64,000 bases of DNA from Owenia fusiformis (Eukaryota > Annelida > Polychaeta > Sabellida > Oweniidae), in assembly GCA_903813345.2 (NCBI GenBank), contig CAIIXF020000008.1, forward strand, positions 28,584,005-28,648,004, in the 5' to 3' direction. Shown here piece by piece: positions 475 through 61,646 of the stretch (position 1 is its first letter; each line of letters begins with the position of its first letter). Position numbers and translations under genes: made by a program. The notes below the pieces were generated by a model that saw nothing but the letters and a program-made list of their open reading frames with translations, made no database searches and was not told where the DNA came from.

Positions 475-8344
<7,870 letters not shown>

Positions 8345-18168: not shown

Positions 18169-18695
18169 CATGTACAGTAGTACACATGTAAATAGATTCA
18201 GGATTCTCTGACAGGTCATTTGTTAACTTAAATGAGGATTTGAAATTTTGATTGAAATCATTCAAAATCCTGTATTCAAAGAAATTCTCAATTCTTTTAG
18301 TTCAAATCTCCACCTTTAAAGGCTTAATTATACGATTTTAGACTATTGACTAAAATAGTCAAGGCAAAAGACTTATGAGTAAATAATTGTGTGATGCTAT
18401 ACCTCAGACTGAAAGCAAATCAAAGACGACCTAATATTGTATAATGATATCAGGCTGAAACAGAGGAAGTTCCCCAGAATATGAACCTCCATATAAAATA
18501 ATCCTCTAGGTGTACATCTTCACATGGAAATAGGTTCATCCATGAATTATGGGATATATCCCCCTACAGTCATCCTGCATGCCAGACCCAACCCCCTTTG
18601 GTGGAATGCTTTGCATGTCATAGAATGAAATATTTTATTTATTATGTTGTAATTGTTGAAATTGTATTGTTAAAGCTATACTCTACTATGGTGTT

Positions 18696-18837
18696 AATGC
18701 CTGGGTCACATTTGCTGATCAATCAGCCGGTGCCCGGCTGATTGAGTGTTTTGCTCAATATTGTATTCAATTTTGAACAAAATACTCAATCGGCCTGGCA
18801 CCATAGTGAAGATCGGAGCAAATGTGACCAAGGCATT
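18696..18837. mobile_element. Foldback MITE, 142 bp (copy 1)
   Basis: AATGCCTGGGTCACATTTGC at the left pairs with GCAAATGTGACCAAGGCATT at the right. The arms continue inward as an imperfect hairpin (CTGATTGAGTGTTTTG against CAAAATACTCAATCGG), and a smaller palindrome lies inside (CAGCCGGTGCCCGGCTG). Confidence 0.8.
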
Positions 18838-19126
18838 ACTACAAGATCTTGGGATTATCTGTAATTTTAGGAATTTATTTCCCTAATTTCAAAGTAACTG
18901 CTAATACAAGTTCTTTGAGGCTAATCATTTTGCCTGAATATTTTGGTTAGACAACTATATATTGAACGGTCCCTCGGGTTGCTGTTTTATTATGGACTTC
19001 AAATAATTTGACCTAAAGTTGTTGTTTTCTAATTCTATTCTATTTTTTCATTTTAATTTCTGTGACCTTATTTTTATAAAATGATTGCATGAAAAAATGT
19101 AGTTCATTTTTACTGAGCATATAACC

Positions 19127-19255
19127 TTGGAACTTTTCAATTTTTTTTCAAATTTTTCCGAATTAATTTTCAATTTTTTTTCAAAATTTTTTTGTCAATT
19201 TTTCAAAAATTTTTTTCAAATTTTTCAAATATCTTTTTTTCAAAATATTTTTAAA
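19127..19255. repeat. T-rich low-complexity tract (also 27476-27604)
   Basis: Runs of TTTTTCAAA-type units produce a spurious phenylalanine-rich open frame. This is simple sequence, not a gene. Confidence 0.8.
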
Positions 19256-22168
19256 GATAGTATCTGTAGGATACGATTGGGTATCACGTCATATGGATCA
19301 GATACGATTTTAGTGGCGTATACGAAAATTATCTTGTGTTGGTATCCCCATATATATTTAGTATCCATTGGATAAAAGTTAATAAGTGAAGTAGAACTGT
19401 ACTTTCACCCTAATAACAATTAAGTGACACAATATCTTTCATAAGTTTATTTTCAAAACTGATTAAAATATTGCTAATTACTTCTGTATGTATACCTCGC
19501 GAGCATCAACTTCGGAATCTGTGTATAATTGAATATACATGTATGCAATTATCTGACAAAGACCATATTAAAATCCAACATTATGACACTGATTTTCCTT
19601 TTTGTGCAATTCTAATTTTAAAAGCCTTATAGATTTTATTTTATGTAGAGATATGATTACTATAAAATATAAGAACTATGGAATAATAATTTTAGTGTCA
19701 TTAAATTCAAATATCCAAGTTATGTGTAACTCACTCTATATATTCTTGGAATGAATTGTAATTTTTCTAATGACAATTGATTCTTATGATAAATATTTGC
19801 GGTGTTATGTATTATAAGTTTACATTGTATTTGCATACAGGGTTCTTCAATAAATTAAAGTACTACTTGGAGACTTGCAGAACTTCATTGTGAAAAATGC
19901 TATTAATATTACAACGCTTACATGACTAACATTAGTACATGAGCTTTGATATTTCAACAAAAACAACTTTGCCTTTGACATCGCAATTGACAACTATATG
20001 TAAATACATGGGGGCTGATTATTATCAAAACATTTCAAGTGTCAAATTATCTGAACATTATCTGTCCATTGGACATAAATAAAGGTTTCTGAAAATATAT
20101 TGCAGTTTTTGTTTTAAAGTGTTCAAAACTCTTAGTAGTACTTTAATGAGGTCATTAATTCTCATCAAGTTTATCTGTACAGAGGTATAGCTATGTAAAA
20201 CCCTCAATTTGTGCATGTTCCATTTCAATTGAATTATGAACATTATCAGAAGTTGATAATTGTTTAAAACATGTCCTGATTCTAGGAGCATACCAGTATT
20301 ATTCCTCATAGTGTTTTAATTCACAAAGAATCGGGTCAATGTACCGATGTTGTCCAAAAACACAAAAAATATATTTAAAATTCCCTCTTCCCCAAAAAGT
20401 AATTGAATATTACTATTGATTTATTCCTTGTAGAAATCAATATTGACTCACAAAATGTGTACCACATCTCAGAATCATAGATATACATGAAAATTGCCAT
20501 ATTGAACTAGCCCGAAAATCTGCTAGATTAATGCATTCATTTAACATTGAAGCATTAAGCTTTGTGTTCCACTTTTGAACCTCGATTGAAATCAAAATGC
20601 AACAAACATATATGAGGGATAATACTGATATGAAATCCTGCGTTTGTTCTAATTTATTCTCATGTGGCTATAAAATGTAAGAGGATATCATACGTATTGA
20701 CTGACATTTCTTTAGATAGGGTTTGATTTCTGATATTAAGTACTTGCAATTTGGTTGTTACATATGAAGTACAGTACAAAGCACTCTAATGAGAAAAAAC
20801 CTTTACTAAATGTACATTATAAAGGATTTCTTAAAAGATTTACTTGAAGGGTCCTGCAATACATCAAATATGAAATATTCGGCTCATTAGCATAATGTAT
20901 CGTGGGACTTCTAATGTATTTCTGGGAGTTTAGTGTCTGTGTGACCTTTCTTGAAAATATGGTGAGTAACAATACGAGAAATTGTCTCTTTGTTGTCGTA
21001 AGATTGTGAGACATTCGAGATTTATGAATCGTATGTACACGTAATTCACAAATTTTCTGAGAAATTGCATCGTGGTTAGTTTTTTGTTGTACTGTAATTA
21101 ATGTGTCAGGTTGACCAACTTTTAGCAATGCTAACCTTTGTTAATTGTAAGATATTATATATAATTAAATAAATTATATAATTGTTATAAAGCAATTCAA
21201 ATATAATTGTTGTGTTCAAAGTCACTGATATATTATTCATAGTGGCAAATAAGAATAGAAGGTGTAAAATGTTACTACCAGAAAAAGAAATAGAGATATT
21301 TGAACAAATGGACACTCTCGAAGATACAAATGTCAAATATCTATTGGAATTAAAATAATTGCCAAACATCCTAAAAATCAAAGTATTACCATGAATTCAA
21401 CCATTGTCAAAGAGTCAGCCAATCAAATTACATATTACCTGTTCATTACTAAACAATAATGAACGATTTTTCATAAATTACTGCACTGTCCAAATCTTTG
21501 AAACCGTGCCTGTGATCCAGGATTTATTGCCACATTATAGCCAGAAAAGGTTGAATTCGAGTCAGCTCAGTGCAGTCAACTACACATTCCTTGTTTTTTG
21601 TTGGTTTTTAGAGTATCGGAATGACAAAGAATTTTTGTAAGCAAAAAATATTAGAAAGTAACTTGTTTCTAGTTTTCATGTAACATGAGGTCCTTTTGGG
21701 AGAATAAGTCTTCCCCAGTCCAGCAGTCCACTTTCTCTGAAGCTTGAACTTCAAGAGAGAAAATGGGCGTGGCACATAACTAGCCGTTATAAGTCCCGTC
21801 CTTGTACAATACTCTATCATAGAATACTGGTATAATATAATTTCAACATTATGTCAGTAGCTGTCAACATTAATTAAAAAGTAAAATGCATTCCTCTGAG
21901 AGATCATTAATAAATTATTATCGGATACATATACTAAAGACATTTTACTCCATAGAAGACATCATAGAATAGCTTTTCCCGAGGAAAGTTAAGCGTACTG
22001 GACGAAAATAATCAAATATAATCATATACGTGGTGCGTCATGGATATTTTTATTATTTCAACCAATAGCGACACAAGAGATCATTCAGCTGCTATGAATT
22101 TTGACCTACATACCAAAATCAAACAAATTCTGAAATATTTATTTTAATAATCTCTTATATACTCCGCG

Positions 22169-25100
22169 ATGGACGAAGATGATTTAGAATTCGACCAGCC
22201 TAAAAAGAAAGGGGTATGTATATGATTAATTAATGCATTGAAATAGTTAATCGATGTTAGATTTTGAACAGTTCAAAGATCGGAAGCAGGATGATATTTT
22301 TTAGATTTATTTCAGATCTGAGATTTTATCACACACAAGACTCAGTCTGTGTCACATATTTCGGCCCTTTTAAACGTTCCTCATACAAAGTGGTACCTGC
22401 CTCCCAAGACTCCTCTTGTCTGATATTTTCATTTGGTTGAAATAAATATTCTGACCATAAGTGTCCTATGAAAATATTGGTGTTCGAACACATTTGTTTA
22501 AAAATAAATTTTGATTAAAAATGGCTGATCGACAGAACACGAGGATTAAGACTGAGTACTAACTCTGTTGGTCTGTTGGATACATACTACCCGCTTCCCC
22601 TTGATACACAGTCAGTATGCAGTGCCTAAATCAAGATCTTTATCAAGAAAGGTAGACATAACTGCAGACTGACTGTGCCATGACAGATCTTGGGTTTAAT
22701 CTGTTGCTGAGATCTTCATCTTTCTACACTTGTTTGGTTCAAGTAAATGAGCTATGGACGCTGCAGTTCAACTTTTTATGTCAAAGAGTTGTTTCGGGAT
22801 CATGTCACTCCATCACATTTCAATTCATTGCACATTGTCTTCAATTCTTTGAACCTCATTGTAAAGCTGGTGTCAAATTTCCTGAAATTCAAGATATGAC
22901 ACGAAACAGTGGATTTGAGGACGGACATTGCCCCTCCAATAAAATATCACTATTTTGGCCTCCTATCAATGCAGGATTACCATTCATTATCATTGTGATC
23001 ATTCATTGTGACCAGAAAATAAAAAATAACAAGAAGCTTCGAATGAGGTATGAGGTATCTCATATATTTCTGAAATGGCTGCACAGTTGTCATTCTGAAA
23101 TTATGAATATTTTCTCAAAGCTGATCAAGAGGTTTCTCTTGAGCTACTGATCCTATTCAGCAATAGAATCATGCCGTCATCTATGTTTTCTTTGCCAGAG
23201 ATTACATGAGATCTTGACAACCGGGAATTTGCTGATTATCTTGTTCTGGCTTTAAAATTCAAATTCTGTTCTATTTATCTATTTATGATTTTATGTTAAA
23301 GTCAGATTTCATAAAACATGGATATTACTCCAGAATTCTACCTATTGGTTAATCGAGCGGATGTACAGTCAATTTCAGTGGTGTAAAACGACGTCTCCCG
23401 TGACCAACCTTAATATGTCTGTTTGATGCAACAAGTTTGCAATAGCAATGGTTTCAAGGTTGTTTACAGAAAGATGACGGAAAAAGTTGACACCATAGCA
23501 ACTTGAAATTTAAATAAACATTCACTAGAGTCCTCCCAGTATCACCATTGAAAAAATCAGAAAATTCTGATAATTTTAAGTATTTCTATTCTGCTTTCCA
23601 AGAAAATGTATTTTACAAAAAAATATAGATCAAGAGCATGTGGATTTTCTATTAAAGGGATTCCCAGGTACTTCATCAAAATAACGTCACTATTCAATTT
23701 AATATTCTCTTCAATCGACACATGCTAGTATAAACTATTATACTGTTGGTTCACAAGCTTAAAGAATTACATAACTTGACAGATTGAATAGAGTAAAACC
23801 TGTGTATGGTGAACACCTATGGAGCCAAAAAAGTGTTCACTGTAGGTATGTGTTCACTACAGAGATGGGATTTTATACAGGACTCAATAGAAAATATATC
23901 TTGAAGTGATGTTTGCTAAACACAGGTGTTCACTATAGAGAGGTGTTCACTAAGGCAAGTTTTTTTTCATAAATTCAAGTTCAAGTACAGGAAAGCCCAC
24001 GAGTGAACAAGTGACTTTTGTGTGGCTGTCAAAGTTAATCATCAGAATGGATTTTTATCACAATCTAGACCACAATGATGCATGAATTGTCATATTTGCC
24101 AAGTGTAAAAATGCAGTGATCTCCCTAGGAATTTTTCTCAAGTGGGGGCAAAATTCTTATATTCTCAATGCACACTATAATTGGTCAAAATATGGATATT
24201 TTTCATGATTTTTCTCATTTTAAGTGGGTGCAGATGGATTTCAGATGGCTGCAAGCCTATTTTCAAAATCTCAGGTGGGTGCTGCGCCCACTTGCTTTAA
24301 TGCTGGGGAGATCACTGGTTAGTGTATGACTTCCCGAATGAGTCCATGTATTGTACCTGAATGTCTATCTTGTAACCTTGTTGTATCTTTCAGGGTTTCC
24401 TAAAGCTGAAGCGGGTACTGTATATTACACTATGATAAAACATAGATTTAACATTAAGGACATGTATTGCCTTGTAGATCAATTTTTTGCTTCTTGTGAT
24501 TAATGGTACATGGCAATGTAATGCATGGTGATGGTGATCAATCGTGGATATTTACTGTTGTATGCTTAGTGTATGCGGAACCCTTTTTTGATAATGCAAC
24601 CCCTTTCTTTTTTTCCGCCAGTCAGATTGGCTATTTTTGGCCAGTTCAGTTTTAAAGTACATAATTCAGCCTAATTTGTCTTTGATGTTTGCTTTGGTTT
24701 TTAAAATTTAAAAAAATGGAAATCTTTATAGTAAACTATGTTTAGAATTTAAACCAAATATAGTGTTTAGTGGAACTAAATCAAATAAACTGAATACAAA
24801 AATGAGGTAACATAAAAAAAGTCTGAAGTCTGTTTTTCTTACAGAAGGTCAGAATAAACTTCCTTGCTCTGCAATACCCTTCCTTGCTGTGTAATACCCT
24901 CCCTTGCAGTGCAATACCCGCCTCTTTCTCTTTGCATGTTTCATAAATGAATCAATCTATTAAAAGTATTAAGCTATTTTGCATATTGTTTCAAAACCAT
25001 TTATATTTGAAATAAAATAAGAGGCCATGATATAAGAAAAAAAACATCATTGACTTAGTTGAACATAAAGATTCCATACCCAGATTTAAATTTTATAGAC

Positions 25101-28100
25101 ATTATTGTTGGAATCCTTATCTTCTATCAGGCCCAATAAGAAATGATCTTATTCACCTTTCCCCAAAGTCAGCTCATGAATATTATAATTAGCAAATCTC
25201 AAAACTCTGACGTCAGAGTAGGGCAGATTTTCGCGGGAAAATCCTAACACATTAGAAGTCAATGGGAATCATGACGGAAACGGGTTAATTTTATTGTCAA
25301 ATTATGTTGAGTAGTGATAATATTTATGATAAATGTAATGGAATTTAATTAATTATACTCCCGTCTATATTCCCCCTTCTTGTTATATTGTTCTGGGGAA
25401 TCAAATGAATAGAGAAATATTGATGTGAAGAGTCCAATGTTCCCTGTACATTTTCACTATATCTAGAATGCCGACTGTATAAAACCCCATGTTAATTCTT
25501 GACTGTCAAAATGTTAACATCCCATGGTAATCTTAAGTTTGTGTAATATTTTCTCATGGGGAGTGAAGAAGGGGGTACGGCTTAACCTTGAAAAAAAACT
25601 ATTCGACTCTCAAATCTGGGCCAAAGCGTTACTTTCACTTACAATCAGCTACTTATTATACCACATGAAACAATGTTACTTTTATGTCTGCCGAAGAATT
25701 TGACAATGGTTACATGAGTGATGACTAATTTCATTGAATGTTAAGGCCGTTCATGTATGCTTATTGAGACAATGTACCAGAGTTGCTTGTTTTACCGACA
25801 ATCGTCTATTTGAAGAGATTTATCTCTTGAAAAGCCCATGGGCGTTCTTTTAAATATCGAACTTTTTAGAGAACTTTTAGGATATTTTTGGACGTAGACG
25901 TACAAGAGAGAAACTCCGGCGGTTTACCAAGGGGGAGCTTTATGACAGTTTTGGCAAAAAATCATGCAAAAAGTGCTCAGAATGGTAAAAAGCTGCATAA
26001 TTTTGAAAGAGTATCTGACCAGACCTGCAAAAATACATGACCAATCCCAAATTATTTGGGCAACCCGATGAGAAAAATGCAAGTGGACTCTGACATTTAA
26101 AACTGTTGTTCATATATTTTTATTAGAAACATAATGAACTATTTAATTAAATAATCATGATAAATGTATACTGCTAATCCATACAGTCTTATTGTTTGAA
26201 TAATTGTCAATTTTTGGTTTGCGTAATTGGATTCACTTTGTTAAAAGACTAGCACTCGTATCACAATTATTTCTATGGTTTGATTTACCGGATGGTGTAT
26301 TTAAGACACAGCTTAAGGCAAAATAGTCAGAAAAATATATTTCACTTAGTTTTGTTATCATTTAATTTATAATGAGATTTATTTCACTCATTGGGCGATC
26401 TAATAGTAATTGAAGTTTTGGCGCGAAATGTGCCCTGCTTTGACGTCATTGATTTTCATCGACCAATCAGCGCAGCGGTCAAATGAGTACACTTTGGACT
26501 TTGGGGAAAGGTGAATACATGTACAGTAGTACACATGTAAATAGATTCAGGATTCTCTGACAGGTCATTTGTTAACTTAAATGAGGATTTGAAATTTTGA
26601 TTGAAATCATTCAAAATCCTGTATTCAAAGAAATTCTCAATTCTTTTAGTTCAAATCTCCACCTTTAAAGGCTTAATTATACGATTTTAGACTATTGACT
26701 AAAATAGTCAAGGCAAAAGACTTATGAGTAAATAATTGTGTGATGCTATACCTCAGACTGAAAGCAAATCAAAGACGACCTAATATTGTATAATGATATC
26801 AGGCTGAAACAGAGGAAGTTCCCCAGAATATGAACCTCCATATAAAATAATCCTCTAGGTGTACATCTTCACATGGAAATAGGTTCATCCATGAATTATG
26901 GGATATATCCCCCAACAGTCATCCTGCATGCCAGACCCAACCCCCTTTGGTGGAATGCTTTGCATGTCATAGAATGAAATATTTTATTTATTATGTTGTA
27001 ATTGTTGAAATTGTATTGTTAAAGCTATACTCTACTATGGTGTTAATGCCTGGGTCACATTTGCTGATCAATCAGCCGGTGCCCGGCTGATTGAGTGTTT
27101 TGCTCAATATTGTATTCAATTTTGAACAAAATACTCAATCGGCCTGGCACCATAGTGAAGATCGGAGCAAATGTGACCAAGGCATTACTACAAGATCTTG
27201 GGATTATCTGTAATTTTAGGAATTTATTTCCCTAATTTCAAAGTAACTGCTAATACAAGTTCTTTGAGGCTAATCATTTTGCCTGAATATTTTGGTTAGA
27301 CAACTATATATTGAACGGTCCCTCGGGTTGCTGTTTTATTATGGACTTCAAATAATTTGACCTAAAGTTGTTGTTTTCTAATTCTATTCTATTTTTTCAT
27401 TTTAATTTCTGTGACCTTATTTTTATAAAATGATTGCATGAAAAAATGTAGTTCATTTTTACTGAGCATATAACCTTGGAACTTTTCAATTTTTTTTCAA
27501 ATTTTTCCGAATTAATTTTCAATTTTTTTTCAAAATTTTTTTGTCAATTTTTCAAAAATTTTTTTCAAATTTTTCAAATATCTTTTTTTCAAAATATTTT
27601 TAAAAATAGTATCTGTAGGATACGATTGGGTATCACGTCATATGGATCAGATACGATTTTAGTGGCGTATACGAAAATTATCTTGTGTTGGTATCCCCAT
27701 ATATATTTAGTATCCATTGGATAAAAGTTAATAAGTGAAGTAGAACTGTACTTTCACCCTAATAACAATTAAGTGACACAATATCTTTCATAAGTTTATT
27801 TTCAAAACTGATTAAAATATTGCTAATTACAGAGCGCAAAGCAAGGACGTAGATCGCGACGTCCTCCTGTTGATGATGACGTTGGTGTAGCTGAAGATGA
27901 TATGATTGCAGAGACCACCCCAACAACATCAAACTCTAGTAAGAATCGTGTAAGTATGAGATTTAGGGTTTTATCGCCCATACTTGGTTGTAAGCTATCT
28001 ATAAACAGCTGTATGGATAATGTCGACTCTACAAGGTAATTTTTGAGGTAGGGTTTTAAAGAGAGACTAGAAACATAGAAAACAGCAATATTGATGTAAC

Positions 28101-37995: not shown

Positions 37996-40900
37996 CTATA
38001 CTTGACCCTGAGAGTATGTGTCGTTGAGTTTCTCTAGAATTGGAATAGGCGCCACCACGGATTGGAAGGACTGAAAATAGAAACAAAGGTTAAATAAATA
38101 GACACACCCATGATTTCTTTATCATACCCAAATCCATCAATCAGTTTTGCTTATATAATTGATCTTCACCAGCTAATTTCAATTGAATCCTGTACTTTTA
38201 AATATCCAACATCTCTGTATCAAAATCTATTGAATCTAAAGTATTGACATTTTTGTGGGAAATGCAGAGTAAGTTTAACCCCTCTACTTGATTGCACACT
38301 TCTAATCTATTCATCTAGAAAAGAGCTGAAAAACATGAGATTTTAAATCTACAAGATGTCACCACGTAGGCCATATCACCACACACAAGTAGGCTATTCT
38401 AAATTTCTAAAATGATGCACACTCAATCAAAGACAAATTTCATATAGAGAGAATGGCATTCAAGATTTGATATTTGAAATATATTCTAAATCAAGCTAGA
38501 ATACTAAAAATAATTGAAATTCAAATAAAAGTATCCAATCATCTGTTTGTTGAAGCATATTGTCACTACATAAAGGCAAATCATTTTTGGACCCAAGAAG
38601 GGAAGGCAAAATGTATCCAACTGATGCAAATCCTAAACTATTGTTCAAGCTATATATACATGTACTATAAGCCATGCTGCTGGAAGTATCATGAGGTGGG
38701 CGAATTGTAATTCAAGCAACTCTTCATTTTCCTAGCTGGCATGAGTCTAAGTGGGCCATTGGATGGTATTATAATTGTCATGGCCAATTATAGGCTGTTC
38801 TGAGTCATTTATTTAATTCAAGTATCTACATAATTGCAATCTTTTAATTAGAAATCATGTCAAATCCATAGGCTGTTTCTTTTACATGCGTAACACCATT
38901 TCATAAGATTTCACCAGCCCAAAAATCAACCAGACCAGCATCCGGTCCACCTCTAACATAGAACTGCATCTCAAAAGCACTGCGAGAATAAACTCTCTAG
39001 TCAATACATGAAATAAATAGGAAAGTATTCCATATTCAATCATCTTAGAGGGTTGTTCCAAAAGTGTTGAACTGATCACTTAAACATTTTTCCAATTTTG
39101 AATAAACATTTTCTGAAAAATGTAATAAGAGGATAATACATCACATCATTTTACAATCATATCAACAACCCGACAGTACAGCATATAATAAATTCTATTA
39201 ATTTTCCAGCAATAAGAGTGGACATTTTGGAACAACCCTTGTAGAAATCTCAGAATAAATTAAGACATCTATCTACTTGTATATCTCTATGCAAACATTG
39301 TAGCACAATATACAAAGCACAATTCAGTCTTACCTCTGCTTCGCTATATTTCAATAATTCAATTACAATAATTAATATATTATTTCAAACAATGATCTGG
39401 GGGTCATTAACTTCGTAAAGTTAAGAATTCATAAATCAAGTGTTGTAACCATTGATATGATGATGTCACAGTTAGAGAACAATGGGTTTTACAAATTCTT
39501 AACATTTTACGAAGTTTCTGTTAATGGCCTCCTGGTTAATATATGGGTGCATCTGTAACTGGTTTGGAGTCACTTTATCCTAAAATGAGGATTGTACCTC
39601 TGAACCCAATAGCATGTTTTAGTTCATTGTAGTGGCAATATTGGAGGTGATGTGGGTACTTAAAGGTAGAATCAGATCTATGGGGTGATGAAAGTACAAA
39701 GTGGCAATGTATTTCTAATGATCTCAAGTATGACAATTCCCAAAAGATGCATGATACATTGTGAAAATGATACATTATTATAAGTCTTTTGTCTTCCTAA
39801 AATGAAGTATGCACTTTTGGGATTTAAAAAATATATATGACGAGGAATGATATGAGCCAATATATTCTAAAATTGAAACTAATTTTGTTAGGTTGCTCAC
39901 TTGATATGACACTATACCTTTAAGCAACAAAGTGTACGAGTTAGTGGGTATAATGCATAAAAATAAAAACTAAGTCGGAACTGAAATAGTGAATGAAATC
40001 ACATGTATACAAAGATATTACAAATATGTACAATGAAGTATTGTATAACAGATATATTGTATAGCATAACTACTCACCTGTTGTACTACATGCTTGTCTA
40101 TCTTTTCTTCTCTGAAGTAATTAGTACCATACGGCAAGTGGCCGAACTGTGATGTCGTGTGCAAGAGTGGTTCGTAGTCTCGGTCTCGCCGTGAAAATGG
40201 CTGGAATCTGTAGAAAAGAAATATGGTAATGACGTGTTCCAACTTATTTTTCCGAAGTAGAATAAACATAACAGCAGAATGTTGTCTGTTCAAATTTATA
40301 GTTTTTGATGTTTATGTCCAAAAAAGGAATAGACAACACTGTTGCAAAGTAATCTTCCAAGCATTAGAGTTACTTTTTGGGTGCTGCACCCCTTGTTGAA
40401 AATCTAAAGATTACATGTACATGCCATCCTGCTCAAAATCTGTTTGCACTAAAGGTTGAACATATTTTGATCAAAAGCACCAGATTGAGAAAAATCCAAG
40501 GAAGATATTGTATTATCAGATACCTAGATAGCATACTCTCCCAATGAATAATCCCATCTTCAGTCCCATTCAGTAAATAACCCAGGTACACAGGTAATAG
40601 CAATGTATACATACGTGTTGTCATTTATTCTGTTGACCCACTCCTCTGCTTTCATAGCCTCTCGTGCCTCTTCTACAGAGAGATAATTTGTGGCGACCCG
40701 TAGTGACGGTTGGAATGGCTTGTAGCGCTGGGCTTGCACCTCAGCAGCATCACGGAATGGGCCCTGGATAGCAATGCTTACATGGTAATATGGGATATAT
40801 CAAATATACATTTTGTATGATTTATGTAATATAAGCCAGGGAAGGTTGGAATGGTTTGTAGCGCTGGGCTTGCACCTCGACAGCATCACGGAATGGGCCC

Positions 40901-43900
40901 TGGAGTAGCAATGCTAACATGTTAACAAGGGATATGTCAGATATACATTTTATCCATGATTTTTTGTATACGCCAATGAAGGTTGGAAAGGTTTGTAGCG
41001 TTGGGCTTGCACCTCGACAGCATCACGGAATGGGCCTGGAGTAGCAATACATACATGTTAATAAGGGATATATTCAATATACATTTTATACATGATTTAT
41101 GTATAAGCCAATGCAGGTTGGAATGGCTTGTAGTGCTGGGCTTGCACCTTTGCTAGGTAACGGAATGGGCAATGTTTACCATAATATGATGAAAGTAAAA
41201 CATAAATGTATTGTAATGAATTTTCTCGAAAGACTAAAATTATACAGCCTAAAAATTCACAAAAATGATTCACAAAAGTACACCTTAGTCTAACTGATTC
41301 AGACTTGTATTTTCAGGTTTGATTCAGCATTGATTTAACACAAAGCTTTTGTCCAATGTCTAGAATCCAGGGCAGCCCTTAATTTGGATACAGGACTGCA
41401 TGATGTAAGGTGTACATGTATACAAAAAGACCACATACCTGGGGCTTTGGTCCAATAGGAGGCAAAGGCTTATGTTTCGGTAAAGAATAACTTTTAGAAG
41501 TTGCGTCAAACTCTGGTTCTTTGGGCTCGACTATTTTATGGGATCTTGGACGAGTTGATCTTAGGAGATATTCTTTTTCTGAAGGGTACCTAAAAGTTAC
41601 AAAAGTTAGATATATGTATATGTGATAGCATAAAATGTAGTTTGTTAAACTCATGGATGGTAGTTCAGTTGTCGACATGTGTCAAAAATGAAGTTCATTT
41701 TTTTGGAGGGGGTAAATCAAAATTGAAGTGAAATGGTAATTCAACATTTTCAAAATTTATTATATGAAGTGAGAAGGAGTTAAACCATAATGAAAGAAAG
41801 TTCATTCTTCCACTTCTGTCTACTTCTGGACATCATACTAAATCAGATATCGATGAACTTTACAAGATATTTTGTAACACGGGTTCCACAGAGGGTAATT
41901 GATTTGAAAATCAAAGCCTGACATATCTTTTGTCTCTAAGTCACACTTACACACATTTAACTCCACTTCTGGCTTTTTTGTATTTATTGTAAAAATATAA
42001 TATTTATTGTATTTATTTGTAAGGTGTTGAGCATCTATGTTCATTTTCGATATCATTTTCTTAACAGCTAAAACAACATTTTCCAAACTTATTATATCAT
42101 ATGTTTGATTATTTATGTTTGATTTCAAAATCATTACATTTTTCATTAAATGTATAATATTTTGCTTACAATCTGGCATAAAGATGTCTGCGGTCAAAAC
42201 TAGAAAAAAAAAACAAAAAACGATCAGGTCTTCATGTTCTTCTTAATCAAATTAGAGATCAAGCTGGTCTATGTGATCATGCAAAAGCATTATAAAGCTA
42301 TAAAATAAGTACCACTACCTCACAAGCAAGATTTATCCAACCATAGGATTGCATAAGGGGGCGATTGATAAAGCTATATTTTTTATATCTGTTTTTTCAT
42401 TTTTTCAAAAATGATAAAGCCAGATACAGTTTGTCAGATATGATGCATTACGTCAAGCATAATTCTCATCCAATGTCAAAAAGTAGTAAAAGGCATGAAC
42501 ATGCAATGCAAAATGTTCCCATTTGCCATTTGTTACAGATGCTGAATGCCAATCACTGAGCACCAATCCACCAACATCAACCGCATTTGACAAAAATGTT
42601 GGGGACCATAACCACCACTTCTGGTGGTGACATAATAAACTGAATAGAGTACCTCCCATTACTAATTACTCATTAAACCATGATTAGTACAACTAATATG
42701 CTATAGTGTTACAGCCAGTTATTAGCAACATTTAATCAAATGAATAAGCAATAACTAAGCATGCTAATTCTAAGACAACCAAACTTATGAAACTTTTCCC
42801 AAACATTTTGTCCGGAATTGGTTCAAAAATGGTCTAAATTAAATGTTAGAAATCTGCCTCAGAATGTCATTCTACTAAGAGTGGTGCACATTTTTTGAAA
42901 AATTTGGTGTGGCACAGAATACATATCACTGGGTCATTCTACTATTCTTTGCATGAAAGCAAAGAACAGAGTTTAGTATTTTAATGAGAAAAAAATTATC
43001 ATATTTAAAGTTAGTACTAGCCATCACACAAGCAAGCAACATATGTACTTGGAATTCATATTTAAATAGGTGTAACTAGACAATTTAGCGAGTGTGGGCT
43101 GCATGTAGTTTTATCTCATCGATCTGTTTATATTTCATAATATTTTTTATTTTTCACCAAATATTTTTTTAACTTAAAAAGCAGTGTTGAAAATGCCTGC
43201 TATGGCTGCATTTATTATAAGAATAATGTTATTAATTTGAATATTTGTTAAAAAACATGATTTGAAAATGCTTTGTAAGATGCAACATAAGAAACCTAAG
43301 CTTATCTTGAACATATTGTATTCCATACTTCAGGTCTCATTGGGCTATCCCCAATCAGCAAACAGTACTGTACAGTACCAGCACTCGGCATTGACCAAGT
43401 ACATGTACAGCACTTTACAGACATTTTTACAGCACCGTTTTACAAATGGTGTACTGTACAGTACTGTTTAGACAAACAGATACACAGAGCTGTGCAGTGC
43501 TTTTTGCGACTGGTTGTGTACCATGGTAAAATTGTTGAACTTATGGTAAGAAAGGAGAGCACTGTTTTGCAAATGGTGTACTGTACAGTACTGTTTAGAC
43601 AAACAGATACACAGTGCTGTGCAGTGCTGTTTGAGACCGGTAAATACACCATGGTAAAATTGTTGAACTTACGGTAAGAATGGAGAGCACTGTTTTGTAA
43701 ATGGTGTACTGTACAGTACTGTTTAGACAAACAGATACACACTGCTGTACAGTGCTGTTTGAGACCGGTTACACCATGGTAAAATTACTGAACTTACGGT
43801 AAGAATGTAGAGCACTGTTTTGTAAATGGTGTACTGTACAGTACTGTTTAGACAAACAGATACACACTGCTGTGCAGTGCTGTTTGAGACCGGTAAATAC

Positions 43901-46900
43901 ACTATGGTAAAATTGTTGAACTTACGGTAAGAATGGAGAGCACTGTTTTGTAAATGGTGTACTGTACAGTACTGTTTAGACAAACAGATACACACTGCTG
44001 TGCAGTGCTGTTTGAGACCGGTAAATACACCATGGTAAAATTGTTGAACTTACGGTAAGAATGGAGAGCACTGTTTAGCAAATGGTGTACTGCACAGTAC
44101 TGTTTAGACAAACAGATACACAGCGCTGTGCAGTGCTTTTTGACACTGGTTGTGTACCATGGTAAAACTGTTGAACTTATGGTAAGAAAGGAGAGCACTG
44201 TTTTGTAAATGGTGTACTGCACAGTACTGTTTAGACAAACAGATACACAGCGCTGTGCAGTGCTGTTTGAGACTGGTTGTGTACCATGGTAAAATTGTTG
44301 AACTTATGGTAAGAAAGGAGAGCATTGTTTTGTAAATGGTGTACTGCACAGTACTGTTTAGACAAACAGATACACAGCGCTGTGCAGTGCTTTTTGACAC
44401 TGGTTGTGTACCATGGTAAAATTATTGAACTTATGGTAAGAAAGGAGAGCACTGTTTAGCAAATGGTGTACTGCACAGTACTGTTTAGACAAACAGATAC
44501 ACTACGCTGTGCAGTGCTGTTTGAGACTGGTTACACCATGGTAAAATTGTTGAACTTATGGTAAGAAAGGAGAGCACTGTTTAGCAAATGGTGTACTGCA
44601 CAGTACTGTTTAGACAAACAGATACACTACGCTGTGCAGTGCTGTTTGAGACCGGTTACACCATAGTAAAATTGTTGAACTTATGGTAAGAAAGGAGAGC
44701 ACTGTTTTGCAAATGGTGTACTGTACAGTACTGTTTAGACAAACAGATACACAGTGCTGTGCAGTGCTGTTTGAGACCGGTTACACCATGGTGAAATTGT
44801 TGAACTAATGGTAAGAAAAGAGAGCACTGTTTTGCAAATGGTGTTCTGTACAGTATTGTTTAGACAAACAGATACACAGTGATGTGCAGTGCTGTTTGAG
44901 ACTGGTTACACCATGGGACTGCCTGAGACTGCCTGTATACCATGATAAAATTGCTGAACTTACGGTAAAAATGGAGAGTTGTATATGCCTGGTATAACTT
45001 CAGTACTGACAAGATAATGTGTTTTTGCTGCATGGTCATCCTTTAGTTTCTTCTCAGCCATCTCTCTCTTTCTCTGCTCTATCATTTCTTGTTGTTCTGC
45101 ATATTCCTCCAACTCATTTCTGGACACAACAGAACATACTTAATAAAACTAAAATGGCAATTTTTAATTTATGAACAATGCATGAACCAAAGGAAGTGAT
45201 TCACCCATCTTGATTAATTAATAATTTTCTAAATTATCACAACTTAACAACAAGGTATGCCGCACACTTAACAAATTAACTATTTTTTAATGATTTCATA
45301 TTTTTGTCTCTCAACCTAATTTTTAAAAGATGATTTTAAAATATTTGATCACCTCCAGCATTTTATATGCTCTTGTGCTAGTCTTCAATTTGTGTGCCAA
45401 TACGAATATGAAATTTAATGACATAAAAATTCATATCATATAGACTATACTGAAGTGTATTACATACCCAGCGAAGCATTTGGATTGAAGTCAATGGAGC
45501 TGAAGGTCGGCTATATATTCCTGTATAGCCGCCAAACCTTTTACCATGACAATCTTATGACGTCATCGGGACGTCATGTTTCATTTCTTCCTAATTTCAC
45601 TCGCACACAGACACGTGGCGTCATTGATATAACGTAGCCATGATATAAAAGTATGTAATACAACAGTTATGTCCGCATCATTGAATATATGCCTTCGGTC
45701 TGTCGTAATATAACCCTCGCAAGCTCGGGCTATATTGGTGACAGACCTCAGGCATATATTCAATGATAGGGACATAACTGCTAAGTATTGAGTACTTATA
45801 GACTGTACTGACCTGACAATTTCATTCTTGACTTGTAGTCCCTCTAAGTATCTCTTCCTACTATAGTAATTAGATATATACTTTCTAGTGTAGTATCCCC
45901 GCCAGATCTTTTGTACCTACAATCACAATTCAGCATTTTAATTGCAAAATCTAGAAAGGGGGAGGGGTGTATTTAGCGTACCAATAGGGGGAGGGGAGCT
46001 GTCTGAAAAATTCCTCCATGTGAATGATGATTTTCAATTTTCCATGTTGAATTTTATTTTTTCCAGAACAATGAGTAGTAATGATTGAATATTAGCAATA
46101 AATAAATTAACATTTAAAAGTCATCTGCTTTGTATGTAGTAATGCATATGTTTCTTTATGTAATTTTAAAAGTAATTTATTCATAACATACAGTATTTTT
46201 GACGTTTCATTTATTCTGTTATTTTGTATGAATCCTGTATGGTAGCAGAATATATTAAAAGTACTGTAAAACCTGTCTCAGAATAACACCTTTGATTACT
46301 TTAAAAAGTATTCCACTTGAGAGGTGTTCCGCTTAAAGAGGTTCATTTAACATTAAGTCAGTATGTCTAGGGATTCTGAAGTTTTCCACAAACAGGTGGT
46401 TCCCTTCTAGAGGTTTTTCACTTTACAGGTTTCACTTCGTGTATGAGGACATAAACCAACCTTCATTGAGCTATATGTAAAACAATGTGAATTAACATTT
46501 CCTACATAATATCACTATATTTTTTCTCTTACCTTGGTTGCCATGGCATTGTAGTGGTTCATCTTCATGATAAATACGCTATTCTGAAAACAAATAAAAA
46601 CATATTACTCACCCAAAAGGCTAACTTACACACTAAAACAATTGCAAAATCACTGAAATTCTTGCAAAAGTTTACAACATCCAAATCACATTTTAACTTA
46701 AACATAGTACTATGGAAGTTTTGCTTCATACAAAGCATACAAAGGATGATAATTCAAAATATATGAAAATAATAATTATAAGTTTTTAAACGATCATTTT
46801 TAAACAATCTTATCATGAAAACCATTTACAAAACTCAATGGCAATATTTATTACCAAAATATAACTTTTGAGTAGGTACATGTAGGAATTCAGTTTCAAA

Positions 46901-49900
46901 ATACAGTGCTATATTCTGTTTTTAAATGTTATATTTTGTGCCTCCTTACTAAACATCATAGATGTGCTTCCTTACTAAACATCATAATATGGAGTACCCT
47001 GAATTCCCATAAATTTGCAACAACTCTCTCTGACTATAACAGAGGATTTTAAAGTTTTGGTGTTGATAATTTGTGTTGATAAAGTCATATATCTTTGAAA
47101 TAAATATTAGCGATTGGCAAAAAACCTTAAATGGTAGAATGTTGTCTTGTTTAAAGAGTGCAGACAAAGTCTAGATTTTTGCAAGGGTAATCACATGGCA
47201 AACTCACCTGTACACATATTCTATAATAGATTCTACCCAAGTAGCCTCTCCATCGGGCTTGTATGAACCCAGCACACTTATGAAGGTGTCTAAAAGTTAC
47301 ACAGCAAATCTAAATTATGGTTATATGGATCTATAAGATGTGGTGCAGCAAATATGTGAGCATCACAAAACATCTAGATCAAAAATGATTTGGGATGGTG
47401 ATAGTGGAAATAAATCTGAAAAATAAGACACGACGATGGTTACACCTTTCTTCCAAATAGTTGATAAAGGTATTTCATGAATTAAACTGTTTTACATTTT
47501 GAAAGAAAAATGTAACCACTGAATGTTAGAATCTTCATGTTAGATATTATCACACACAGTGCTATTTGTCCCTATCAGAATATTTTATAGGCTAATCTGA
47601 AATAAATTCAAAAATGTGTTAGCACAAATGTAATGTAAGGTTTAGTCCAGGGATGAGATACAGAAAATAACAATGCATTGTCATTCCCACAATTTTTTCA
47701 AGCAGGTGGAAAAAATTTTCGCCAAAAGTGACTCAAAATTTATTTCAAAAATTCAAAATAATTTTCATATTTAATGTGTGTGCAAAAAGGGGTTTCAGTG
47801 GGAGAAAATTAATTGTCAGCATCTCAAGTAGGTTTGACATCCATTTGCCCAAATGCAGTATGGGATATATGACCACTCCAAAGTATTAATTCATGAAAGG
47901 TGCAATCCATGGGTGCAGTGTAGTCGAATCCACTGCACTTACTTTAACAAGTAATCTAGAAAACTTTCTGCCCAGAAATCCTCTAAATCTGGCTTGCATT
48001 TTGCTTGCACAATAGTTTAAATGGCTGAAATGATAAGAGATATGAATTATGTTTATACATGCAAAAGGGGGAGAAAACAGTTGAGAGTGCTTATTTGGCA
48101 ATAATTTTGATTAACTAATTTTGACTGGCATGCACCAGGGGGCCTTTTTTCAATTTTAATGAATTTGGACATTTCATTAAATTTTTCAGATGTTAGAATT
48201 TAAAAAAATTAGAATTAAAAAAGGGAAACATTTGGGATTTGGGCCTGAGGAGTGTACATGTACTGATTTTCTGAACAATAGTTTAAACTATAAGCCAGAA
48301 GATGTATAAATTTATATTCTGAACATATGCTTCCTCAAAATGTGAGTGTAACTCAATATCAGCTCTGGTGAAGTATAAACTGATGATACCATGATTTACT
48401 TACCGAATGTATGCCCTGACCCTCTGGCCCCTAAACCAGGCTTGTATCCTCACAATTGCTCTGAATTCATTGGCCCTTGCTGCTTCCGCTTCACTGGAAA
48501 AAGTAATAAAACATATGTAATATACTTAACAATCTTTTCAAAACTGAAGTATCAAACTAGGCTAACAGTATCCTAAGAGTGATATAGAGAATGTTTTCTC
48601 ACCTACATATACTTGTAGACTTAAAACAAAACTTTCTCTACTCGACAAAATCACTTGTGCACTCACACCTAGAATCTACATGTTCTTGTAAGCAAAACAA
48701 AACTGCCCAAACTCTATAAATTGTGTACTTGTGCTTCGAATACTTGCACTACATTTGAAGAATAGAGCTAGAGAGTGAGCCCAAGGTAACAGAACAAATG
48801 TCTTTGGCAACAGAATTGTCAACGATTGGGGGAACAGCCTCTGACATGGAAACACTACATTTGTCACTACTACATGTATGCCCTGAAGTGCTAATGCTTA
48901 AATTTACGTGTTCTACAACCTGGCCTGTATGTGTACAAATGTAAACAATAGATATACTACTAAGTGGTATTTAATCCGAGTGCCTAATTTGCGGAATGGC
49001 CAAATTTTATCTTTTTCCTCATTTTAATTTTCCCAATGACAAGAAACTTCCTATTGGATAACATTATGAAGACAATATTTCAGACATTTAATTTTCCGAA
49101 CCTACAAAACATTAGGCAAAAGGCAAATTGAATGATTAGGCAAAATTACCACTTACACATTACTTCAAGCTCATTTCAAGTGTAAAACAAAGACTTTTGA
49201 ATACCTTCATCTAAATCAATAATCTACAAAAAGTCTACTTAGTTAACAGTGATAGAATTTGAATATAGTTTAAAAATAAATCTACATGTATAGTTTAAAT
49301 TCAACTCATTTCAAAATTGAAAAGAAACTTCCAGGTTCTGTTGGCAAATGTACCCCCTAGAAAATCATGTAACTAATAACTACCCATGTGCACTCGATCG
49401 CTCATCTGGGAAGCAATTGTGTAACGAGCCAGATACTAGACCTGAAAGGGAGTGTGTTAAATTCAATTCCAAGTAGGGGAATGGAACCCAGGACCTTTTG
49501 CTTCAAAGCCAGACACTCTACCGATTCAGCCATAAGGGCTAGCCACTACAGTAGAGACTGTAGTTGCGACTTGCTATGAGGGTCATTATACCATCCCCCT
49601 GATCAGACGATGTCCCGTCGTAACTGATTCATAAGGTCAATCCAACATCTGATACCACTGTAACGACCCTTGGGCACTCAATGGGCTAGCCACTACAGAA
49701 GAGACGTGGACTATGGTAGCGACTTGCTATTGAGGGTCATTACAGTCCCTATATGTTGAGACACTGGAGATGACGCCGTAGCTACCACATTGACATACCC
49801 AGAACTAATAAAGATCTGGATTGATATAGAAAATGGCATTAACCTTATACACGAATAATTGGCATATAGGTACGGAACTTAGGCAGGAGGCTTACTAGCT

Positions 49901-50147
49901 TACTAGGCCAAGGCTGGGTGACCAAAGCAAAACAAAAAAATTGAAAAAAATAATTGAAAAAAATACATTTTTTTCATTTGATCGATTTATTCACGATCTT
50001 GTGGACAGTTACTGATCAAACCTCGTTACATAAAAGATAAATATACATTGTTTCAAAAAAATACATTTGGTTTACTCACTTTTTCCTCTCATAGCACTCA
50101 TCAACGATAGGAGGTACATCCTTTTTCAAGCGAACCATCGTCGCCAT
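37996..50147 (-). CDS. SPATA17: SPATA17, spermatogenesis-associated IQ-motif protein
   Basis: Family members bind calmodulin through IQ motifs and act in the sperm flagellum and in cilia or microtubule structures. Minus-strand exons in order: 50147-50080, 48493-48404, then one of 48024-47943 or 47289-47208, 46583-46533, 45916-45813, 45119-44964, 41589-41439, 40763-40615, 40207-40078, 38070-37996. Phases join throughout into 351 residues; human SPATA17 is about 360. Visible parts: start MATMVRLKK; first IQ motif IVRIQAWFRGQRVRAYIR; second IQ in the alternative exon; third IQ VQKIWRGYYTRK; a charged helix (AEQQEMIEQRKREMAEKK); the family signature HYLVSTEVIPGIYNSPF; then GPFRDAAEVQAQRYKPFQPSLRV and QFGHLPYGTNYFREE; stop after SQGQV. 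The first ATG overlaps a YY1-like AAAATGGCGAC. The gene is divergent from the 50466 gene across 318 bp. Confidence 0.94.
40708..41180 (-). repeat. Tandem array from the 3'-splice-site side of a SPATA17 exon
   Basis: Part of the exon at 40615-40763, its acceptor and about 75 bp of adjoining intron recur three more times upstream in the intron. Exon-derived segments start near 40844, 40981 and 41116, with a period of about 136 bp. The first extra copy keeps CCAG|GGCCCATTCC and an open frame that ends in intron sequence with TAA. The second has lost one G at the border. The third is diverged and has no acceptor. Confidence 0.9.
41838..42197 (-). CDS. Uncertain open frame of about 119 codons inside a SPATA17 intron
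   Basis: An open frame on the SPATA17 strand is preceded, a few bases before its first ATG, by a T-rich acceptor-like TTTTTTCTAG. It encodes mixed-composition sequence (for example NVVLAVKKMISKMNIDAQ) with scattered cysteines, and no transmembrane segment is evident. No family is recognised and no partner exon was found. It could be an exon of a nested gene or chance. Confidence 0.2.
   Translation of the reverse strand: MTADIFMPDCKQNIIHLMKNVMILKSNINNQTYDIISLENVVLAVKKMISKMNIDAQHLTNKYNKYYIFTINTKKPEVELNVCKCDLETKDMSGFDFQINYPLWNPCYKISCKVHRYLI
43440..44963 (-). repeat. Tandem array of about 127-bp units abutting a SPATA17 splice donor
   Basis: About twelve units (start points near 43451, 43578, 43706, 43831, 43959, 44087, 44214, 44341, 44468, 44594, 44719 and 44845) lie in the intron immediately downstream of the exon 45119-44964. 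Each unit includes GTACTGTACAGTACTG, CAAACAGATACAC, and a segment that in SPATA17 orientation reads CTCTCC-TTCTTACC-GTAAGTTCAA. That segment is the last bases of the exon plus its donor. Units near 43670-44050 keep GTAAGT; the others read ATAAGT. The array therefore grew from the exon/intron border. Confidence 0.92.
45664..45780. mobile_element. Near-perfect 117-bp foldback (MITE-like) in a SPATA17 intron
   Basis: CAGTTATGTCC at the left mirrors GGACATAACTG at the right. The arms pair through TCATTGAATATATGCCT and GGTCTGTC almost to the centre. There is no coding capacity. A direct repeat, ATAGACTATACTGA near 45440 and ATAGACTGTACTGA near 45800, brackets a larger segment around it. Confidence 0.85.
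46262..46434. mobile_element. GTAAAACCTGT-family element in a SPATA17 intron
   Basis: It starts TACTGTAAAACCTGTCTC and has the AGAGGTGTTCCGCTTAAAGAGG-like body cut by changes. It ends around TTTACAGGTTTCAC. It is diverged from the copies at 29683 and 53930. Confidence 0.55.
47208..47289 (-). CDS. SPATA17: SPATA17 alternative IQ exon 3b
   Basis: This 82-nt exon has a TTTTAG acceptor and GTGAGT donor, phase 2 to phase 0. It encodes (R)HLHKCAGFIQARWRGYLGR... and ends RICVQ, a textbook IQ core IQARWRGYLGR. About 15 of 28 residues match exon 3a. Splicing 3a to 3b would shift frame and hit a stop at the fourth codon of 3b. Confidence 0.8.
47943..48024 (-). CDS. SPATA17: SPATA17 alternative IQ exon 3a
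   Basis: This 82-nt exon has a TTTCAG acceptor and GTAAGT donor, entering in phase 2 and leaving in phase 0. It encodes (R)HLNYCASKMQARFRGFLGR... and ends LLVK. Its IQ core is MQARFRGFLGR, with Met in place of the usual Ile. It is homologous in sequence, length and phase to exon 3b. Confidence 0.8.
49468..49539 (-). mobile_element. tRNA-derived SINE head
   Basis: On the minus strand the segment reads as a tRNA-like promoter. An A box TGGCTGAATCGGTAGAG lies about 30 bases before a B box GGTCCTGGGTTCCATTCC. The acceptor stem does not close, so this is not a working tRNA gene. It sits in SPATA17 intron 1. Confidence 0.65.
49528..49745. repeat. Direct repeat of about 60 bp beside the SINE
   Basis: GGGCTAGCCACTACAG followed by AGAGAC...GCGACTTGCTAT(T)GAGGGTCATTA occurs at about 49537-49588 and again at about 49683-49742. 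It probably belongs to the SINE body or to a dimeric element. Confidence 0.6.
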
Positions 50148-56184: not shown

Positions 56185-58002
56185 CAGGGTGCATGTTGGG
56201 AAATTTTCTGCATTCCTCAATTGAGTCACATGTTATTTTTCAAACAAGAATAACTCCTTCCCCACATTGTCTACATCTTCCAAGTTTGCACAAAGAGTGC
56301 ACTTATGTGCCTAGAAAAGCCTTGTGAGAAGGTTTGTTTTGTAAAATGTATAAAAAATGAGAAAATTCAGTGAAAAAAATTTCTGAAAATTTTCTGATTT
56401 TTTTCACTGAATTTTCTTGTTTTTATTGTACCTAACAAAAGGTACGATATTGTAGTCAGCTTGTTATCGTACCTAACAAAAGGTACAATATTGTAGTCAG
56501 CTTGACAGGCGGGCGGCGGGCGGCGTCTCACTTTTCAGCTTGTCTACAGGTTTCCAGCAAAACCATTTGAGGGATTCATCTGAAATTTTCAGGGATGTTT
56601 CTACATATCAACATCAAGAACTGATTAGTTTTTGGGTATTCTGGGTAAATCTTAAGGTGGCCATTTTGGATTTCCCGTCCTAAAATCTTCACTTTCAAGA
56701 CTTGTCTACAGGTTTCCAGCCAAACCATTTGAGGGATTCATCTGAAATTTTCAGGGATGTTTCTACATATCAACGTCAAGAACTGATTAGTTTTTGGGCA
56801 TTCTGGGTAAATCTTAAGGTGGCCATTTTGGATTTTCCGTCCTAAAATCTTCACTTTCAAGACTTGTCTACAGGTTTCCAGCCAAACTATTTGAGGGATT
56901 CATCTGAAATTTTCAGGGATGTTTCTACATATCAACATCAAGAACTGATTAGTTTTTGGGCATTCTGGGTAAATCTTAAGGTGGCCATTTTGGATTTTCC
57001 GTCCTAAAATCTTCACTTTCAAGACTTGTCTACAGGTTTCCAGCCAAACCATTTGAGGGATTCATCTGAAATTTTCAGGGATGTTTCTACATATCAACGT
57101 CAAGAACTGATTAGTTTTTGGGCATTCTGGGTAAATTTTAAGGTGGCCATTTTGGATTTTCCGTCCTAAAATCTTCACTTTCAAGACTTGTCTACAGGTT
57201 TTCAGCCAAACCATTTGAGGGATTCATCTGAAATTTTCAGGGATGTTTCTACATATCAACGTCAAGAACTGATTAGTTTTTGGGTATTCTAGGTAGATTT
57301 TAAGGTGGCCATTTTGGATTTTCCGTCCTAAAATCTTTACTTTCAAGACTTGTCTACAGGTTTCCAGCCAAACCTTTTGAGGGATTCATCTGAAATTTTC
57401 AGGCATGTTTCTACAAAGCAACGTCAAGAACTGATTAGTTTTTGGGCATTCTGGTTAAATTTTAAGTTGGCCATATTGGATTTTCTGTCCTAAAATCTTC
57501 ACTTTTAAGACTTTTCTACAGATTTACAGCCAAACCATTTGAGGGATTCATCTGAAATTTTCAGGGATGTTTCTACATATCAACGTCAAGAACTGATTGG
57601 TTTTTGGGCATTCTAGGTAAATTTTAAGGTGGCCATTTTGGATTTTCCGTCCTCAAATCTTCACTTTCAAGACTTGTCTACAGGTTTCCAGCCAAACCGT
57701 TCAAATTTTTACATATTTTACACAGTGATAAGTTCTAGAGCTGATTAACTTTTCTGCGGCCATCTTGCTTTCTTGGTCAACAAGACCACAATGCTGTGTT
57801 TTAGGTACGATATTGTTCACGTCTGTGCCTTGTTTATACACTTTATCAAAACATCCTTCTCACAAGTCTTTTGTAGGCACATAAGTACACTCTTTGTGCA
57901 AAACTGGAAGATATAGACAATGTGGGGAAGGAGTGATTCTTATTTGAAAAATAACATGTGACTCAATTGAGGAATGCAGAAAATTTCCCATCATGCACCC
58001 TG
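56185..58002. mobile_element. Foldback transposon with about 170-bp inverted ends and an internal tandem array
   Basis: CAGGGTGCATGTTGGGAAAT at the left matches, inverted, ATTTCCCATCATGCACCCTG at the right. The arms stay alignable for roughly 170 bases (through TCACATGTTATTTTTCAAA and CTCCTTCCCCACATTGTC to GAGAAGG). Just inside the left arm, ACCTAACAAAAGGTACGATATTGTAGTCAGC is present twice. The middle is the 162-bp array listed next. No coding frame is seen. A TA-type target site is possible but unclear. Confidence 0.8.
56541..57710. repeat. 162-bp tandem array inside the foldback element, seven full units plus a partial
   Basis: GTCTACAGGTTTCCAGC recurs at 56542, 56704, 56866, 57028, 57190, 57352, 57514 (diverged) and 57676, always exactly 162 bases apart. 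The middle units are nearly identical. Copies near 57400-57520 are the most changed, and the last is a fragment that passes into unrelated sequence. Confidence 0.95.
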
Positions 58003-59849: not shown

Positions 59850-60396
59850 TCAAACATTGTATCACATGCTTTTATTTCAAACATTGTACCACTTTGCCTT
59901 CACTTTCAAATATTGTACCACTTGCCTTCATTTTCAAACATTGTATCACTTGCCTTCACTTTCAAATATTGTACCACTTGCCTTCACTTTCAAACATTGT
60001 ATCACTTGCCTTCACTTTCAAATATTGTACCACTTGCCTTCACTTTCAAACATTGTATCACTTGCCTTCACTTTCAAACATTGTACCACTTGCCTTCACT
60101 TTCAAACATTGTATCACTTGCCTTCACTTTCAAATATTGTACCACTTGCCTTCACTTTCAAACATTGTATTACAAGCTTTCACTTTCAAACATTGTATTA
60201 CAAGCTTTCACTTTCAAACATTATATCACTTGCCTTCACTTTCAAATACTGTACCACTTGCCTTCACTTTCAAACATTGTATTACAAGCTTTCACTTTCA
60301 AACATTGTATTACAAGCTTTCACTTTCAAATATTGTATTACAAGCTTTCACTTTCAAACATTGTATTACAAGCTTTCACTTTCAAACATTGTATTA
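59850..60396. repeat. 28-bp satellite, left part
   Basis: The units are CAAACATTGTATCACTTGCC plus TTCACTTT. Towards the left they alternate with CAAATATTGTACCACTTGCC-type units as a 56-bp dimer. Towards the LINE the variant TGTATTACAAGCTTTCAC dominates. No unit carries a plus-strand stop, and 28 is not a multiple of 3, so all three frames stay open. That creates long artificial open frames. Confidence 0.97.
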
Positions 60397-61144
60397 GGAT
60401 TTAAAAATACTTGGTCAAGTAAGGTTCATAATATTTTAAAAGATTGTAATCTCCAAAGCACTTGGAATGAACAAGTTGTTGAGGATGACTATGTATTTAA
60501 AAAGAACCTGACTAAAACATTGTACCAACATTATAAGGAGAAATGGAAGTGTGATTTACAATTATACCCAGTTTTAAGAACATACATTAAATTCAAAACA
60601 ACTTTTGAAAGAGAACAATATTTAAGCCTTCAAAACAAAAATCACAGGCAATCAATTTCACAGCTGAGATTAAGTTCACATAAATTACAAATAGAACTGG
60701 GTAGACATGTAAAACCACGGCCAAGACCTGAATATGAAAGATTATGTAACTTTTGTGGGGAAATAGAAGATGAGGTTCATTTCATGATTAAATGCCATTT
60801 ACATAGAGAAAATAGAAAATTGTTTGACAACATCACTAGCAAAATTAATGTTGATCAACATGATCCTGAAAATACATTCATTATGTTAATATCTTCAAAA
60901 GATAAATATGTGCAAAAGCAAGTTGGAAGTTTTATTACAAAATCATTCAAAAACTTAAACTTGCCTGGAGATTAACATTTTGGATGCATCACACCTAAAG
61001 TATATTATAACATATGTAAATAACAAGTTCTTTGTATAAATTGTATATATTAGTGTAGTGTAGTGTAGTTTTGTAAAATTTCATTTTGTAATGACTAATA
61101 TGTCAGGTCATGACATCTAAAGAGTCAATAAAAGATATATATAT
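60397..61144 (+). mobile_element. 5'-truncated LINE (non-LTR retrotransposon), 3' end of the reverse-transcriptase ORF
   Basis: The open frame to the TAA at 60973-60975 encodes about 190 residues typical of the C-terminus of a non-LTR ORF2. It has a W-containing helix region, LRLSSHKLQIELGR, and a zinc-knuckle-like CNFCGEIEDEVHFMIKC. A 3' UTR of about 165 bp follows, with AATAAA and a terminal (AT) run. The left flank ends GTATTA and the right resumes ATTACAAGC, so a 4-5 bp target duplication inside a satellite unit is likely. The catalytic domain and endonuclease are absent, so this copy cannot move itself. Confidence 0.8.
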
Positions 61145-61515
61145 ATTACAAGCTTTCACTTTCAAACATTGTATCACTTGCCTTCACTTTCAAATATTGT
61201 ACCACTTGCCTTCACTTTCAAACATTGTATTACAAGCTTTCACTTTCAAACATTGTATTACAAGCTTTCACTTTCAAATATTGTACCACTTGCCTTCACT
61301 TTCAAACATTGTATTACAAGCTTTCACTTTCAAACATTGTATTACAAGCTTTCACTTTCAAACATTGTATTACAAGCTTTCACTTTCAAACATTGTATTA
61401 CAAGCTTTCACTTTCAAATATTGTACCACTTGCCTTCACTTTCAAATATTGTTTCACTTGCCCTCACTTTCAGAAATTGTACCACTTGCCTTCACTTTCA
61501 AACATTGTATTACAA
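61145..61515. repeat. 28-bp satellite, right part
   Basis: Continuation of the same satellite after the LINE, mostly the TGTATTACAAGCTTTCAC variant. It decays after 61500 just before the BTB exon. Confidence 0.95.
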
Positions 61516-61646
61516 ACGTTCACTTTGAAACAATTTATATCATATGCTAATCACTTCCAAACTTTGTATAACTATGCTTACTTTCTCTATAAAATTTCTA
61601 AATATATTTCCAGGCATCCATAAAGCAGATATCTTCATTGACTAAA

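Follow-up and report, generated by a model that had tools for sequence, protein, structure and literature searches.

The stretch of DNA considered here, a window of 64,000 nucleotides (nt) from the annelid Owenia fusiformis (assembly GCA_903813345.2, contig CAIIXF020000008.1, positions 28,584,005 to 28,648,004), contains on its minus strand a gene that, by sequence comparison, is SPATA17, of the family of Chlamydomonas FAP305. Its nine coding exons, all on this strand, run from 50147 down to 40078, with the end of the protein and the stop codon lying in later sequence past exon 9. The coding part of exon 1 (50080-50147) starts at an ATG, encodes MATMVRLKKDVPPIVDECYERKN and ends in phase 2, its last codon being split with exon 2, which it joins in frame. 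When the ATG-to-donor candidates for this exon were scored for similarity to the human N-terminus, the chosen one came first with 30; an in-frame internal ATG scored 16, and the next unrelated candidates 8. Exon 2 (48404-48493, phase 2 to 2) encodes IQ motif 1, which is detected by the Pfam IQ profile at 20.8 bits. It is followed by two alternative exons, 3a (47943-48024) with the motif MQARFRG and 3b (47208-47289) with the motif IQARWRG, each of which is 82 nt long, passes from phase 2 to phase 0 and encodes a version of IQ motif 2; a GT-AG intron of 653 nt (47290-47942) separates them. Further along the gene lie exon 4 (46533-46583, phase 0 to 0), exon 5 with IQ motif 3 (45813-45916), exon 6 (44964-45119), exon 7 (41439-41589), exon 8 (40615-40763) and exon 9 (40078-40207).

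Two tandem repeats are embedded in the gene. The intron between exons 6 and 7 contains a repeat of 125 base pairs (bp) in 11.8 copies (43431-44916). In addition, the acceptor and first ~65 nt of exon 8 recur upstream as part of a tandem array with a 136-bp unit in 3.3 copies (40704-41149). The copy near 40900 retains the acceptor and the frame and then runs into a stop, and from their sequence the copies resemble decoy acceptors or alternative ends that are cut short.

Searches with the 159-amino-acid (aa) protein of the IQ region, in its 3a form, hit both the mouse SPATA17 chain in structure 9ijj (E 8.4e-40) and the FAP305 chain from Chlamydomonas in 7n6g (E 9.5e-28), bearing out the name given to this gene by the first-pass annotation of the window. 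The similarity spans the IQ region and an NSPF block, and the mouse and Chlamydomonas proteins are of the same family and display the same order of IQ motifs. Three stretches matching Pfam PF00612 were detected in the 3a form and in the 3b form alike, in agreement with the earlier claim that both exons encode an IQ motif. Two protein searches of the genome (498 megabases, 525 contigs), in which only the best candidates were scored, gave 3 and 7 matches, all of them within the window; a second SPATA17 gene was rejected on this basis, as the matches are to this locus alone. A pattern scan of viral contigs matched 5 stretches and recovered 0 relatives. Models of COX1 and of molluscan haemocyanin matched nothing, the haemocyanin model being silent in the controls as well.

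The peptide encoded by exon 3a is RHLNYCASKMQARFRGFLGRKFSRLLVK and that encoded by exon 3b is RHLHKCAGFIQARWRGYLGRIYYRICVQ; the two share 15 of 28 residues, with 22 of 28 scoring as positive in BLOSUM62, and 49 of their 82 nt. Both are bordered by GT-AG splice sites (tttcag/gtaagt for 3a and ttttag/gtgagt for 3b). Open, phase-correct segments of 82 nt bounded by AG and GT number 72 on the two strands of the window, the pair included. Among them 3a and 3b score 80 against each other in BLOSUM62, while the best score of any other segment against either is 13, and no third copy of the exon was found among the open AG-GT segments of this length, the only one scored. When exon 2 is joined to 3a and 3a to 3b, the product ends in LLVK-TPS-stop, the stop being the fourth codon of the out-of-frame 3b, and when both are skipped the product ends in R-IAYLS-stop, with exon 4 out of frame and the stop after six codons. 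Inclusion of 3a alone or 3b alone yields an open frame over nine exons from the ATG, with a length of 981 nt and 327 aa, such that the protein is intact only with exactly one of the two. The adjacency, equal length and phase, and shared residues of the two exons are exactly as the first-pass annotation had claimed, and both of its predicted frame breaks, together with its statement that single inclusion alone leaves the protein intact, were reproduced. A transcript with one of the two exons would accordingly encode the full protein, and those with both or neither would encounter the early stop and probably be removed by nonsense-mediated decay.

None of 300 base shuffles reached the local score observed between the two exons. 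The flanking introns, compared over 301 nt on each side, are not significantly similar, with 17 of 300 shuffles reaching the score on the 5' side and 82 of 300 on the 3' side. This difference between exons and introns suggests an old duplication of which only the exons have been retained. Drift was simulated by freezing one copy and mutating the other, with success defined as an open frame with a BLOSUM score of 80 or more. With 33 random differences (20,000 trials each) the pattern arose in 0 trials from 3a and in 0.03% from 3b. Poisson drift at a divergence (d) of 0.57 produced it in 0.24% (from 3a) and 0.40% (from 3b) of trials, and at d 1.0 and 1.5 in 0 trials. Nonsynonymous (dN) and synonymous (dS) divergence between 3a and 3b were estimated at 0.39 and 2.34 by NG86 and at 0.33 and 0.88 by LWL85, values that derive from 28 codons of one species with dS near saturation. 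Taken with the drift simulations, they provide signs of coding constraint on both exons. 3a and 3b probably represent an old tandem duplication of the IQ2 exon of SPATA17 that has been kept as a pair of mutually exclusive exons, both presumably used in RNA.

Comparisons with other members of the family bear on which of the copies is closer to the ancestral form. Each exon matches mouse SPATA17 at 13 of 28 residues, with N4, K21, F22 and L25 of the mouse protein being kept by 3a only and I10, W14, Y17 and Y23 by 3b only. The human sequence likewise gives 13 matches for each copy with four unique to each. FAP305 matches 3b at 10 positions and 3a at 7. The BLOSUM62 scores against mouse, human and FAP305 sequences are 75, 70 and 44 for 3b as against 64, 56 and 26 for 3a. 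Drift from either copy, under a null that starts from the other copy rather than from an inferred ancestor, yielded at least four mouse matches lacking in the other copy at rates of 0.46% and 0.40%, and at least 13 mouse matches in total at rates of 0 and 0.015%. Hence, on sequence comparison 3b looks to have changed less than 3a, although 3a is itself still far from what drift would leave.

The known location of the protein in the axoneme provides clues regarding the potential consequences of this choice. The projection C1a of mouse sperm is reported to be centred on SPATA17 as its rachis, which binds SPAG6, and the C1a stalks that SPATA17 forms are described as holding three calmodulins (PMC12297659). 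Similarly, the Chlamydomonas C1a is described as having FAP305 for its rachis and calmodulin in its arm (PMC9113940), and the calmodulin-containing C1a has been tied to how the beat responds to Ca2+ (PMC7999657). The three mouse calmodulins might map to the three IQ motifs. Given three calmodulins in the stalks and three IQ motifs in the annelid protein, exon choice would then determine which version of the middle calmodulin site is present in the rachis of this central-apparatus projection. Positions 1, 5, 8 and 14 of the IQ consensus are hydrophobic contacts with calmodulin; these are occupied by I, W, Y and Y in 3b and by M, F, F and S in 3a. Scanned alone, 3b scores 20.4 bits with the Pfam IQ profile, just above its cut-off of 20.3. 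The site of 3b is predicted to engage both lobes of calmodulin and that of 3a to bind it less tightly or with a greater dependence on Ca2+, and the choice between them could tune C1a among cell types or stages.

Several observations nevertheless weigh against this reading of the pair. At d 0.3, which corresponds to ~20 changes, 16% and 18% of neutral trials look as good as the real pair, and by itself the excess of differences at third positions (16 of 33) falls short of significance (P 0.063). Exon 3a scanned alone reaches 18.7 bits, below the Pfam IQ cut-off (20.3), though the peptide of exon 4 and IQ motif 3 also falls short of it, at 16.2 bits. In the comparison with FAP305, 3a has 0 unique matches and 3b has three, from which 3a may be the drifting copy. 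Further, the mouse model of SPATA17 with calmodulin came from AlphaFold2 Multimer and was predicted before fitting (PMC12297659), so that the mouse calmodulin sites are partly modelled. Pairing between introns, sought in this one species across three intron pairs (60-nt windows, 30-nt steps), did not go beyond shuffled sequence: 18, 5 and 6 of 25 shuffles equalled the best duplexes. In the introns examined, neither RNA pairing nor a branch-point layout was found that could account for an exclusive choice. Part of this evidence is what would be expected if one exon alone were used and the other were a relic, its use having ended recently enough for it to appear intact. Drift of ~20 changes does retain the pattern in 16-18% of trials, and 3a both falls under the Pfam cut-off and has no FAP305 residue that 3b lacks; however, with 33 differences, the number observed, no more than 0.4% of trials give the pattern, and each exon preserves its splice sites, its exact length and four mouse-like residues. 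We consider such a relic unlikely: the drift results reject a long neutrality of either copy, while leaving room for a recent end to the use of one.

If 3a and 3b are mutually exclusive, the means by which one is chosen needs to be considered. The first-pass annotation held that exclusivity is enforced by the reading frame, which is correct to the extent that the wrong products are useless, but frame alone makes no choice for the spliceosome. The donors of introns 2 to 4 are GTAAGT, GTAAGT and GTGAGT, all in GT-AG introns, and by eye the splice sites look U2-type, both the donors (exons 2, 3a, 3b and 4) and the acceptors (exons 3a, 3b and 4). Incompatibility of splice sites and crowding were both rejected, as there is no U2/U12 mix and 653 nt lie between the exons. 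At the 3b acceptor an AG lies 20 nt upstream and the pyrimidine fraction is 0.64, values similar to those of exon 4 (24 nt, 0.68); the acceptor of 3a is somewhat stronger (65 nt, 0.73). A distant branch point like that of OGDH was also rejected, with the AG 20 nt before the 3b acceptor speaking against it. Since splice-site, crowding, pairing and branch-point explanations found no support, protein regulators along with decay of the wrong products are left, by elimination, as candidates for setting exclusivity. As each of the two faulty joins meets an early stop with several exons yet to follow, the pair could alternatively be a quantity switch, wherein double inclusion or skipping would give decay-bound mRNA and lower SPATA17 in non-ciliated cells, the two proteins being equivalent. 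We regard this as quite improbable, because expression control needs no two diverged IQ exons under coding constraint, and several of the differences between 3a and 3b fall at IQ positions 1, 5, 8 and 14.

Outside the gene, the window contains two abutting stretches of 8,350 bp (11132-27830) that are 99.94% identical and that either arose very recently by tandem duplication or are an artefact of assembly. The possibility that the exon pair itself is an artefact of assembly or of merged haplotypes draws on this possibly artefactual repeat in the same window, and appears hardly credible: 33 of 82 bases differ between the exons and their introns are not significantly similar, which a merging of haplotypes would not yield. 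The remaining repeats are a tandem repeat with a period of ~162 bp (56528-57698, 94-96% identity), a tandem array in steps of multiples of 28 bp (59850-60396) with a related block at 61144-61585, and a tandem repeat with a period of ~44 bp (2880-3444, 93-94% identity).

Mutually exclusive exon pairs that break the frame are a well-known kind. A survey of human clusters of such exons reports 377 (60%) with frame-breaking lengths, i.e. not divisible by three, among which reads joining both exons were seen in only 83, and its authors conclude from their numbers that 484 clusters are under tight control by other mechanisms (PMC5740500). The SPATA17 pair resembles the frame-breaking clusters described there in comprising tandem homologous exons that encode the same place in the protein and disrupt the frame when included together; those clusters were validated by junction reads (PMC5740500), whereas 3a and 3b are known here from genomic sequence. 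Exons 4a and 4b of OGDH are likewise reported as mutually exclusive, such that one protein exists in a form that is sensitive to Ca2+ and another that is not (PMC7969005), though in that case the exons change the protein's own Ca2+ response and not a calmodulin site. The main texts of PMC5740500 and PMC9741552, searched without their supplements, make no mention of SPATA17. No paired SPATA17 exons were found in the titles and abstract openings recovered, a search that excluded supplements, subscription journals and genome annotations. The earlier remark that no such pair is known in vertebrate SPATA17 is in keeping with the mouse chain in the PDB and the human protein, each of which has a single such segment; the solved chains of 9ijj and 7n6g have one IQ2 segment each, which is a comparison of chains and not of genes. 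Within the literature searched, SPATA17 appears to be a new member of this class, and automated genome annotations may already list both isoforms.

More tentatively, exon choice might retune the Ca2+/calmodulin response of C1a, with one form in sperm flagella and the other in somatic or larval cilia, such that a single gene would provide for two Ca2+ responses in beating; we regard this as possible but less likely than not. If the two exons are indeed used in the manner proposed, there would be two versions of the axoneme differing at the middle site alone, through which the role of this site could be probed without deletion.
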